Of a DNA stretch of 64,000 nucleotides, positions 10,961 through 59,333 are shown piece by piece. Each line of letters starts with the position of its first letter. Positions within the stretch are counted from its first letter, which is position 1. The position numbers and the translations under genes are program-made. The notes under the pieces are model-generated. The model was not told the origin of the DNA. It made no database searches and was given only the letters and a program-made list of their open reading frames with translations. The stretch comes from Novipirellula aureliae (GTDB taxonomy: Bacteria; Planctomycetota; Planctomycetia; Pirellulales; Pirellulaceae). The stretch is taken from positions 248,001 to 312,000 of the forward strand of contig NZ_SJPY01000001.1 of NCBI RefSeq assembly GCF_007860185.1, in the 5' to 3' direction.

Positions 10961-10989
10961 CAGCGTCTCTCCGAGACGCTGTTTTTTTT
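10961..10989 (+). terminator. hairpin followed by eight T, terminator-like
   Basis: A perfect 9-bp stem (10961-10969 with 10973-10981) with loop TCC is followed directly by eight T residues. This is a textbook intrinsic terminator for rightward transcription, yet no rightward gene lies upstream. The stem is also an inverted variant of the array unit that follows, so it may instead be the cap of that repeat element. Confidence 0.4.
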
Positions 10990-11262
10990 GCGAGTCTCGG
11001 AGAGACTCGCCTACGAGAGGCTGGGCGTGCGAGTCTCGGAGAGACTCGCCTACGAGAGGCTGGGGAGGTGCGAGTCTCGGAGAGACTTGCCTACGAGAGG
11101 CTGGGCGTGCGAGTCTCGGAGAGACTTGCTTATGAGACGCTGGGAGGTGCGAGTCTCGGAGAGACTCGCCTACGAGAGGCTGGGCGTGCGAGGTTCGGAG
11201 AGACTCGCCTACGAGACGCTGGGGGGTGTGCGAGTCTCGGAGAGACTCGCCTACTGTTGCTC
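10990..11262. repeat. palindromic tandem array, seven 39-42 bp units
   Basis: Seven units begin GCGAGTCTCGGAGAGACT and vary from 39 to 42 bp. Each core CGAGTCTCGGAGAGACTCG is a hairpin with 8-bp arms and a GGA loop. The last unit continues CTACTGTTGC instead of CTACGAGAGGC, which makes it resemble the units at 50813-51688. An inverted variant precedes the array at 10955-10981. Both strands are largely free of stops, so automatic gene callers will see false proteins here. It occupies the gap between the divergent TolC-like and HEAT-repeat genes. Confidence 0.9.
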
Positions 11263-24278: not shown

Positions 24279-24334
24279 GTCGTGGATCTTGTTAAAGATC
24301 CTTTTGCGTCCGGATCTTTAACAAGATCCACGAC
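24279..24334. repeat. 56-bp palindromic repeat, copy 2
   Basis: A perfect inverted repeat: left arm 24279-24301 and right arm 24312-24334, starting GTCGTGGATCTTGTTAAAG. It sits between the convergent gltD and GH57 genes, where it could also act as a bidirectional transcript end, although neither side has a T-tract. Confidence 0.9.
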
Positions 24335-27580: not shown

Positions 27581-27636
27581 GTAGTGGATCTTGTTAAAGA
27601 TCCCCATGCAAAAGGATCTTTAATAAGATCCACTAC
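27581..27636. repeat. 56-bp palindromic repeat, copy 3
   Basis: Left arm 27581-27603 and right arm 27614-27636 pair with one mismatch. It lies inside the pst operon, between pstB and phoU, and so would be transcribed with them. A hairpin there could affect the amount of phoU transcript, as REP elements do in enterobacterial operons. Confidence 0.9.
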
Positions 27637-50789: not shown

Positions 50790-50812
50790 TCGGTTGGCCG
50801 AGAGATGCAGCA

Positions 50813-51688
50813 CGTTTCGAGGCTCGGAGAGACTCGACTACTGAGCAGCGCGTTTCGAGGCTCGGAGAGACTCGACTACTGGGCAGCACGTTTCGAGGCT
50901 CGGAGAGACTCGTCTACTGAGCAGCACGTTTCGAGGCTCGGAGAGACTCGTCTACTGGGCAGCACGTTTCGAGGCTCGGAGAGACTCGACTACTGGGCAG
51001 CACGTTTCGAGGCTCGGAGAGACTCGACTACTGAGCAGCGCGTTTCGAGGCTCGGAGAGACTCGTCTACTGGGCAGCGCGTTTCGAGGCTCGGAGAGACT
51101 CGACTACTGGGCAGCACGTTTCGAGGCTCGGAGAGACTCGACTACTGGGCAGCGCGTTTCGAGGCTCGGAGAGACTCGACTACTGGGCAGCACGTTTCGA
51201 GGCTCGGAGAGACTCGTCTACTGGGCAGCGCGTTTCGAGGCTCGGAGAGACTCGTCTACTGGGCAGCGTGTTTCGAGGCTCGGAGAGACTCGACTACTGA
51301 GCAGCACGTTTCGAGGCTCGGAGAGACTCGTCTACTGAGCAGCGCGTTTCGAGGCTCGGAGAGACTCGACTACTGGGCAGCACGTTTCGAGGCTCGGAGA
51401 GACTCGACTACTGGGCAGCGCGTTTCGAGGCTCGGAGAGACTCGTCTACTGGGCAGCGTGTTTCGAGGCTCGGAGAGACTCGACTACTGGGCAGCGTGTT
51501 TCGAGTCTCGGAGAGACTCGACTACTGAGCAGCGCGTTTCGAGGCTCGGAGAGACTCGACTACTGAGCAGCGCGTTTCGAGGCTCGGAGAGACTCGACTA
51601 CTGGGCAGCACGTTTCGAGGCTCGGAGAGACTCGTCTACTGAGCAGCGTGTTTCGAGGCTCGGAGAGACTCGACTACTGGGCACCCTC
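50813..51688. repeat. palindromic tandem array, 23 units of 38 bp
   Basis: Twenty-three consecutive units, all exactly 38 bp, each with the core CGAGGCTCGGAGAGACTCG, then (A/T)CTACTG(A/G)GCAGC and CGTTT. The core can fold with 8-bp arms and a GGA loop, with one arm mismatch; the unit at 51503 is perfect. Differences between units are confined to a few sites (A or T after CTCG, A or G in CTGRGC, and the base after CAGC). Because 38 is not a multiple of three, the array cycles through all three frames and largely avoids stops, giving false long plus-strand frames (50805-51338, 51458-51889). It fills the gap between two convergent genes. Confidence 0.95.
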
Positions 51689-54792: not shown

Positions 54793-55632
54793 GTGAACGA
54801 GAACGATTCCGCCGAACCCCTCTTTGACTTTTTGGGCTTGCAGAATAAGACGATCTTGGTAATGGGCGTTGCCAATAAAAAGAGTGTTGCTTTTGCCATT
54901 TCCAAGACGATCCGCCAAGCGGGCGCCAAAGTGATTTACACGGTGCGTAGCGAATCACGCAAGGAAAGCTTAGCAAGACTGCTTGGCGATTCCGAAATGA
55001 TTGTTTGCGATGTCGAGGACCAATCGCAAATCGATTCGCTAAAGGACGTGCTGACCGACCGCGGCGTGGTCCTCGATGGATTGGTTCATTCGATCGCATT
55101 CGCCGACTACCCCGAAGGTATCCGCCCGTTTCATGAAACGACTCGCCAGCAATTTCTGCAGGCGGTAGATATCTCGGCCTATTCACTCATCAGTGTCTGC
55201 AATGCTCTGAAGGATCGGTTTTCAAAGAATGCGTCGGTCGTGACGATCGGAATCAGTACGACTCGGATGGCCAGCGAAAGCTATGGATTTATGGCACCAA
55301 TCAAAGCAGCATTGCAATCGTCGTTGGCCTTCTTGACGAAATCGTTCAGTCGATTTAGCGAAGTGCGGTTCAACAGCGTATCGGCAGGCCTCTTGAAAAC
55401 GAGTGCGTCAGCGGGGATTCCCGGATATGTCGATTCCTACTTATACGCCGAAAAGGTGATCCCTCGTGGCCGCGCCGTTTCGACGGAGGAAGTCGCGTCG
55501 ACGGCCGCGTTTCTGCTAAGTCCTCGCAGCAGCGGCATCGCGGCCCAATCGATTGTCGTTGACGCGGCGATGGAGACAAATTATTTCGATGCCAAGCTGA
55601 TCGAAGCGGTCACGGCCCAGGATATCGATTAA
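54793..55632 (+). CDS. fabI: enoyl-[acyl-carrier-protein] reductase
   Basis: FabI reduces trans-2-enoyl-ACP with NADH in the last step of each fatty-acid elongation cycle. The protein has 279 residues. The cofactor motif [13 protein letters not shown] replaces the classical GxGxxG, as in all FabI. The catalytic pair is Y164 and K171 in the Y-x6-K spacing, and SIAFA precedes it. It starts with GTG at 54793, with a 10-15 residue N-terminal lead relative to E. coli FabI. ilvE follows 45 bp downstream, and the two may be co-transcribed. Confidence 0.93.
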
Positions 55633-55677
55633 ACTCTAGAACGTCGAAAAACATCTCTTCAACGAAACAACCTAAAC

Positions 55678-56538
55678 ATGAATCAACATATCTATATTAA
55701 TGGCGAGTACTTTGACCGCGAAAACGCCAAGGTTAGCGTTTTTGACCACGGACTCCTTTATGGCGACGGCGTCTTCGAGGGGATGCGGATCTATCATGGC
55801 AAGGTGTTCCGGCTTCGTGAGCACCTCCAACGATTGTGGGATTCCGCCCAGGCGATTGCGCTGACCATCCCAATGTCGATCGATCAAATGACAATCGACG
55901 TCAATAAGACGGTCGCAAAAAACGATCTGGAAAACGGCTACATCCGGCTCATCGTCACTCGCGGTGCAGGCCCTCTCGGGCTCGACCCGTTCCGATGCAG
56001 CAATCCGCAAGTGATCATCATCGCCGACACGATCAAGCTGTATCCCGAAGAATACTACGAAGATGGACTCGAACTCGTGACCGCGTCAACCATCCGTAAC
56101 CACCCTGCAGCACTCAGCCCTCGGATCAAATCGCTCAATTATTTGAACAACATCATGGCCAAAATCGAAGGCTTGAAAGCAGGGTGCATTGAGGCCTTGA
56201 TGCTAAACCATAAAGGCGAAGTTGCCGAATGTACCGGCGACAACATCTTCTTGGTGCGTGATGGCGTATTGATCACGCCACCAATCGACGCAGGCATTCT
56301 TGAAGGCATCACTCGCGACGTTGTCTTAGAATTGGCAGCCGATTTAGGGATAGCGGTTCGTGAGGTTCCGATTTCACGCTACGATGTCTACGTCGCCGAC
56401 GAATGCTTCTTGACCGGAAGCGCCGCCGAAGTGATCCCGGCGGTCCGGATCGATGACCGCATCATCGGCGACGGCAAACCGGGTCCAGTGACCAAGCAGT
56501 TGACCGAGGCCTTTCGAAAACTAATCCGGCAAGCTTAA
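55678..56538 (+). CDS. ilvE: branched-chain amino acid aminotransferase
   Basis: A class IV PLP-dependent aminotransferase of 286 residues that interconverts leucine, isoleucine and valine with their 2-oxo acids. The PLP Lys is K151 in SPRIKSLNYLNN. Further marks are DHGLLYGDGVFEGMR near residue 23, EALMLNHKGEVAECTGDNIF and the phosphate-binding EGITRDVV. D-amino acid aminotransferases share the fold, so the assignment leans on the ECTGDNIF region and overall pattern. It is followed by the 28-bp repeat array and the convergent icd. Confidence 0.9.
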   Translation: MNQHIYINGEYFDRENAKVSVFDHGLLYGDGVFEGMRIYHGKVFRLREHLQRLWDSAQAIALTIPMSIDQMTIDVNKTVAKNDLENGYIRLIVTRGAGPLGLDPFRCSNPQVIIIADTIKLYPEEYYEDGLELVTASTIRNHPAALSPRIKSLNYLNNIMAKIEGLKAGCIEALMLNHKGEVAECTGDNIFLVRDGVLITPPIDAGILEGITRDVVLELAADLGIAVREVPISRYDVYVADECFLTGSAAEVIPAVRIDDRIIGDGKPGPVTKQLTEAFRKLIRQA

Positions 56539-56562
56539 CGATCCCTCAAGCAGGAACCAAAG

Positions 56563-57038
56563 GTAGTGGATCTTGTTAAAGATCCTTGAGCATATGGATC
56601 TTGTTAAAGATCCTCGAGCATATGGATCTTGTTAAAGATCCTCGAGCATATGGATCTTGTTAAAGATCCTTGAGCATATGGATCTTGTTAAAGATCCTCG
56701 AGCATATGGATCTTGTTAAAGATCCTTGAGCATATGGATCTTGTTAAAGATCCTTGAGCATATGGATCTTGTTAAAGATCCTCGAGCATATGGATCTTGT
56801 TAAAGATCCTCGAGCATATGGATCTTGTTAAAGATCCTCGAGCATATGGATCTTGTTAAAGATCCTCGAGCATATGGATCTTGTTAAAGATCCTTGAGCA
56901 TATGGATCTTGTTAAAGATCCTCGAGCATATGGATCTTGTTAAAGATCCTTGAGCATATGGATCTTGTTAAAGATCCTTGAGCATATGGATCTTGTTAAA
57001 GATCCTCGAGCATATGGATCTTTAACAAGATCCACTAC
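56563..57038. repeat. palindromic array: 16 units of 28 bp, inverted end
   Basis: The left end GTAGTGGATCTTGTTAAAG is the left arm of the 56-bp family. Then GGATCTTGTTAAAGATCC recurs at exact 28-bp spacing, 16 times, joined by TYGAGCATAT spacers, and the element ends at 57016-57038 with the inverted arm GGATCTTTAACAAGATCC plus ACTAC. Each unit forms a 7-bp stem with loop GTTA. Only one spacer position varies, C or T, in the order TCCTCTTCCCCTCTTC. The array separates the convergent ilvE and icd genes, ending 18 bp from icd's stop. Confidence 0.95.
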
Positions 57039-57056
57039 CGCCGTGGCGGGATTGTC

Positions 57057-59333
<2,277 letters not shown>

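Follow-up and report, generated by a model that had tools for sequence, protein, structure and literature searches.

Tandem clusters of REPs are already known (PMC3733652, PMC3116915). REPs may be tandemly reiterated together with flanking DNA (PMC3733652, section 5), and R. baltica, a relative, is reported to carry GTAG repeats (Di Nocera et al. 2013, PMC3733652); the GTAG is the reported cleavage site of RAYT (PMC3733652). REPINs (Bertels and Rainey 2011, PMC3116915; PMC8049555) consist of two inverted REPs around a short diverse spacer and fold as one hairpin; they also occur in ordered tandem clusters, and tandem REPIN copies can be gained or lost locally, one example being the deletion of five copies in a mutation-accumulation line of E. 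coli (PMC8049555). In the enterobacterial BIME-2, tandem REP-containing units lie in intergenic DNA (PMC2817692), and in the same source Nunvar et al. doubt that recombination or strand slippage alone explain the differences between BIMEs.

The window (the whole stretch of 64,000 nucleotides of the Novipirellula aureliae genome that was analysed) contains an array at 56563-57038 (+ strand) that reads, from left to right, GTAGT, 16 x GGATCTTGTTAAAGATCC-T(C/T)GAGCATAT, GGATCTTTAACAAGATCC and ACTAC. The left outer tag GTAGT is present once (56563-56567) and is followed by 16 direct units of 28 bp (56568-57015, + strand), each composed of an 18-bp hairpin core and a 10-bp spacer, and by a closing inverted REP arm on the minus strand (57016-57038), made of the core and ACTAC, the complement of GTAGT. 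The first-pass annotation had described a 16-fold array closed by an inverted half and differing among units at one C/T position; direct reading of the sequence and TRF (16.3 copies, period 28, 97% matches, score 863) bear out both statements, there being two unit sequences, nine with C and seven with T. Its further statement that the left half with its spacer had been amplified holds for core and spacer but not for the whole left half, because GTAGT stands singly at the left end: inner units show CATAT where GTAGT would stand, and GTAGT and ACTAC are the outer ends of the array only. A doubling of an 8-unit block within the array, suggested by the order of the two unit sequences (TCCTCTTCCCCTCTTC), was considered and is not claimed; 7 of 8 positions agree, and shuffles were as good in 5% at the same offset and in 13% or 18% (two measures) at free offset. 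A CRISPR-like array was ruled out, because the spacers are alike throughout.

The array fills the gap between two convergent genes, in agreement with the earlier observation that it separates ilvE and icd. The gene for the branched-chain amino acid aminotransferase (ilvE; 55678-56538, + strand; TIGR01122, NF006185) lies outside the element, the array starting 24 bp past its stop codon, and the gene for the NADP-dependent monomeric isocitrate dehydrogenase (icd; 57057-59288, - strand, start codon provisional; TIGR00178) ends on the other strand, with its stop codon at 57057, 18 bp from the array. In the two nearest genomes examined, ilvE and icd are not neighbours.

The repeat is not confined to this gap. 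A search for the 18-bp core gave 24 matches in the window at no more than 3 mismatches, the place at 1494 being counted once per strand, whereas 100 shuffles averaged 0.06; the array accounts for 17 of these matches, each of them exact. The array had been said to begin and end with the same arms as three single 56-bp copies, and these are present as REP dimers of the same family: 1461-1516, 24279-24334 (with GTCG tags on both arms) and 27581-27636 (which by prediction folds as a 23-bp hairpin with a 10-nt loop); their spacers, however, differ from that of the array. Genome-wide, 235 forward and 248 reverse matches were obtained at no more than 2 mismatches (483 strand matches; because of the near self-complementarity of the core, a small number of places may have been counted twice), with none in the reversed control. 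Two more tandem arrays were recorded in the window by TRF, at 50807-51683 (23 x 38 bp) and 10989-11254 (about 7 x 39 bp), and their units, read on the other strand, show GTAG beside a GAGTCTCTCCGAG palindrome, that is, another GTAG-REP-like family.

The whole of contig C1 (1.55 Mb, 21% of the genome) was searched for arms at no more than 5 mismatches of 23, which yielded 165 arms in 58 clusters and no match in the reversed control. These clusters comprise 27 isolated '+-' pairs with GTAGT outside, the arrangement of HH inverted dimers, 15 single arms and 16 clusters with same-orientation tandem arms, and none of the 58 is an isolated '-+' pair. The tag stands beside a short stem-loop with the stem GGATCTT/AAGATCC, its letters recur in the 52 arms of the 26 close dimers (G in 49, T in 47, A in 41, G in 50), and the repeat is of high copy and mainly outside genes (4 of the 58 clusters lie inside crude ORFs), as is described for GTAG-type REPs. 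The spacer in the 26 close pairs is short and variable, 10 bp in 19 pairs, 11 bp in five and 9 bp in two, and two inverted REPs with such a spacer and a one-hairpin fold also characterize REPINs; the 56-bp element is thus an inverted pair of GTAG-tagged REPs, REPIN-like in structure. None of the 26 dimers shows a direct repeat of at least 3 bp directly at its ends, as a target-site duplication of the kind found with MITEs would. That the spacer is fresh host target DNA in each copy was rejected as a general rule, as the 19 ten-bp spacers resemble each other (mean best identity 4.79 of 10, a value that none of 500 shuffles reached, their own mean being 3.25). Between the arms of the dimers, five identical changes are shared where 1.67 are expected (91 of 10000 shuffles as good), a covariation that is suggestive only. 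One compound REP cluster (C1:1319859-1320055), with arms that switch orientation in turn at steps of 28 and 30 bp, is unlike the other clusters of the contig.

Compared with the systems introduced above, the array and its family resemble the GTAG REPs of PMC3733652 in the tag beside a short stem-loop, the high copy number, the inverted pairs with tags outside and the clusters of singletons or dimers reiterated with flanking DNA; they resemble REPINs (PMC3116915, PMC8049555) in the inverted REPs, the short diverse spacer, the single hairpin and the existence of ordered tandem clusters, and BIME-2 (PMC2817692) in the tandem REP-containing units of intergenic DNA. The differences lie in the unit. 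In contrast to the GTAG REP clusters of PMC3733652, the inner units of the array have lost the tag, and the unit is a core plus the dimer spacer; whereas conserved spacers are a rule of thumb for HH dimers in that source, spacers in the array's family vary, many of them tracing back to CCATGCGGAA. REPIN clusters consist of whole REPINs with flanks and in part adjoin RAYT genes (PMC3116915, PMC8049555), but the piece repeated here is half a dimer, with no convincing link to a RAYT, and while REP orientation alternates in BIMEs (PMC2817692), the units of the array run head-to-tail with one inverted unit at the end. The array belongs to a kind already known, the tandem clusters of GTAG REPs, and the amplification of half a dimer probably follows from the geometry of the dimer.

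This geometry can be read from the core. The stem GGATCTT/AAGATCC encloses the loop GTTA in the core and TAAC in its inverse, so that 14 of 18 letters agree in direct register and the two arms differ in the 4-nt loop only. Since a core so closely matches its own reverse complement, an inverted pair of them doubles as a direct repeat of two copies, offset by 28 bp. The starting point would have been an ordinary dimer of 56 bp, with inverted GTAG-tagged REPs, between the convergent ilvE and icd; the left core and its spacer would then have been copied by unequal recombination or by replication slippage, the latter probably aided by the hairpins, with GGATCTT, common to both arms, as the site of exchange, and later growth to 16 copies would have proceeded in the manner of tandem repeats. 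The closing inverted half would then count as unit 17, the final one of the series and recognizable by its loop, and the tags GTAGT and ACTAC remain single at the two ends because they lie outside the 28-bp period. An exchange in GGATCTT should duplicate left core plus spacer, and one in AAGATCC spacer plus right core. The first-pass annotation had left the mechanism open, and the 28-bp register narrows it to slippage or unequal recombination; we consider it very probable that the array grew by one of these in the register built into the dimer. The near-identical head-to-tail units resemble those of a minisatellite or VNTR, and their variation at a single site is in keeping with the suggestion of a recent amplification or of homogenisation; the recency itself, like the agent and the help of the hairpins, is inferred.

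Both expected outcomes of the exchange occur elsewhere in the genome. The 28-bp register was found at no fewer than four further loci, which brings the total, with the array, to five as a lower bound: a right-arm version with three copies of spacer plus right core at C1:653216, and left-core types with two copies each at C7:254656, at C2:75555 (closing arm missing) and at C2:120269-120342 (L347), the array itself being of the left-core type. At L347, which was met by reading and lies outside the scan list (its two arms together have four mismatches), both units carry identical private arm changes that are absent from the closing arm, which points to copying in place. Among the spacers of the five loci three are mutually unrelated, and the other two, at L347 and C2:75555, are similar to the common CCATGCGGAA. 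L345 (C10), with a period of 28 and GTAGT inside the spacer, is a possible sixth locus. Local copying is common for this REP: in 9 of the 16 tandem clusters of C1 (periods 28-59 bp) at least two of the arms share core changes. Most other arrays in the genome, though, have other periods and units that include GTAGT and some flank, as in the published description (PMC3733652, section 5), without obvious long homology at the joint, and a second amplification process may exist alongside the 28-bp register.

The number of units is given as assembled, and the assembly is a draft of 40 contigs, C1 containing a stretch of 100 N and, besides, four isolated N; the true array might accordingly be longer or shorter than 16 units. 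We regard such an artefact as improbable, as the C and T units are interleaved and the flanks are clean and unique on both sides; moreover, with other loci in the same register, an artefact could alter the number of units but not the existence of the array.

Alternatively, a RAYT (Y1) transposase might have amplified the REP locally, by cleavage at the GTAG tags and rejoining of hairpin DNA. Cleavage at GTAG and the origin of arrays from circular intermediates have been proposed (PMC3733652, PMC2817692), and the genome does encode Y1 transposases elsewhere, a point raised in the first-pass annotation, with 13 Y1_Tnp matches; their link to the repeat, however, is not convincing. In favour of a link, a REP copy split by a palindromic insert lies about 175 bp past the stop codon of one Y1 gene (C8:54077), but near-identical copies of this gene lack the split REP, and about 0.5 chance neighbours within 500 bp of the 13 Y1 genes are expected (our own estimate from the density of 58 clusters in 1.55 Mb). 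At none of the 13 matches was an intact core found within 1.5 kb, and in a comparison of the 12 own Y1 loci L031-L042 by shared 14-mers the split REP in L034 was the sole member of the array's family; four of these loci (L032, L036, L039 and L042) adjoin other repeat families. Six repeat-rich relatives have 65 Y1 matches, and of the 30 loci read among them one (L164) has a core, about 1.5 kb away. A tblastn search with the own Y1 translations against the 120 listed loci of named genomes, a weak test as some translations were in the wrong frame or strand, gave one place, L089, about 1.8 kb from a REP. Y1 matches are present in 117 of the 149 genomes of the family, far more than hold the REP; the best that the repeat-bearing genomes G010 and G074 offer are weak matches (E 1.1e-4 and 6.4e-6), and G046, with one arm, has no Y1 match. 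Units 2-16 (15 of 16) are without GTAG, which argues against growth driven by RAYT. We therefore think it very unlikely that a RAYT built the array; RAYT may have spread the dimer, but it is not needed for the growth of the array in its 28-bp register.

The Y1 loci themselves show further repeats. Contig C8 holds several closely similar Y1 genes (L033, L034, L035 and L040) in a span of some 21 kb, and L034 is adjoined by a tandemly repeated piece that is bounded at either end by GGTGTCAGGACTC or its complement; the IS200-type Y1 gene of L031 (C3) is flanked by another palindrome, GTAGCCGCGAAGCGACGGC.

A part of the REP copies may be embedded in larger elements. At 20 of the 58 clusters of C1 at least one flank scored above the 95% level of random genomic pieces, and at 16 above the 99% level, in a test against two consensus strings for which about 6 and 1 of 116 flanks are expected by chance and which is partly circular, as the strings were taken from the tested flanks. 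The outer end of this larger, MITE-like shell, CTAGTGCTTTGTCA, has 73 matches in the genome at no more than 1 mismatch against 5 in the reversed control, and on C1, at no more than 2 mismatches, 64 single matches against 21. Ten close inverted CTAGTGCTTTGTCA pairs, 122-174 bp long (e.g., 1173330-1173463 and 644676-644797), were recognized on C1, and they enclose a dimer of the present REP in one case, a GTAGTGGACGAGGT dimer in two, a GTGGC...GCCAC-like core in six and another core in one; the CTAGTGCTTTGTCA...TGACAAAGCACTAG shell of this contig thus encloses at least three different palindromic cores. No autonomous partner with the shell ends was found among end pairs within 3 kb on C1. A speculative and rather unlikely extension of these observations would be that REP dimers are both cryptic direct repeats that seed arrays and exchangeable cores of the MITE shell CTAGTGCTTTGTCA...TGACAAAGCACTAG, so that REPs would spread in part via a non-RAYT transposase. 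Other insertions were seen in or between REPs: a palindromic element of about 120-130 bp with ends near GTCGATTTAATC lies in the REP loop in L351 (about 321-470, C2) and in L034 (2350-2494, C8), flanked by TTAA at either end, as though it had used the loop's own TTAA as its target site; in L352 (140-430, C3) the spacer of a REP dimer contains a CGTGC(T/G)TTGTCA-type MITE, which separates the arms.

Identity in 11 sides of MITE-type copies (two from one element) is 93% for the arms, 48% (ungapped) for the 16 bp of flank next to them and 66% for the 10-bp spacers; since the arms are far more alike than what surrounds them, they are constrained or homogenised beyond it. This difference could also mean that the array has been kept or enlarged for the benefit of the cell, either as a row of sites for a dimeric protein or, at the RNA level, as hairpins protecting the 3' ends of the ilvE and icd transcripts, to which the tight fit between two convergent stop codons and the strong predicted hairpins would lend themselves. 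The earlier proposal of hairpin folding is supported in silico: the 56-bp dimer is predicted to fold as one 23-bp hairpin (DNA z -10.9), the array folds far better than its shuffles (DNA z -15.9, RNA z -15.0), and its DNA centroid has an outer stem around a row of small hairpins, the minimum-energy folds being branched. Yet neither terminator-like nor sigma-70-like sites were detected in 56400-57200, where shuffles expect 0.8 and 1.5, Rfam gave no match on 55000-59000, and the clusters do not strongly favour convergent gaps. With crude ORFs, 29 clusters of C1 lie in tandem gaps, 12 in convergent and 11 in divergent ones, two at contig edges and four inside ORFs; 12 of the 52 intergenic clusters flanked by two ORFs are thus convergent, against 16% of random intergenic positions (58% tandem, 25% divergent), and the lean is at most slight.

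The distribution of the repeat also speaks against such a role. The core, at no more than 1 mismatch, is present in 30 of the 149 genomes of the family (own included), which belong to 13 of its 68 genera and have between 1 and about 400 matches each; in named genomes it was found in at least 120 stretches, those listed coming from Pirellulaceae and other planctomycete records, and some relatives have the loop GCTA in place of GTTA. We found no report of extragenic palindromic repeats in Rhodopirellula in the open-access library that was searched. The patchy presence is more in keeping with a repeat that moves or decays than with a core function for the host, and we give little credence to selection for the cell as the reason for the array. 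Growth in the 28-bp register would account for the array in this genome, but its generality is limited, because none of 20 repeat-bearing relatives shows the register clearly: the search gave eight matches, seven of which (one ambiguous) are best read as plain dimers and one of which has GTAGT in the spacer. Arrays of the GCTA subtype can be compared in G010 and G074, two fragmented drafts of the same genus in which copy numbers are approximate. At an orthologous place with flanks 91-97% identical, at least six copies run up to a contig end in G010 against three or four at two contig ends in G074, and in another such array four copies are kept while the spacings are different.

The 28-bp register offers a simple reason for the amplification of half a palindrome with the tags left at the ends, without a dedicated enzyme. 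If so, one could predict for any genome which of its REP dimers tend to grow, and arrays of this kind would provide fast-changing markers in planctomycetes; if the observation of the shell holds, it would bear on how REPs spread without a linked RAYT.
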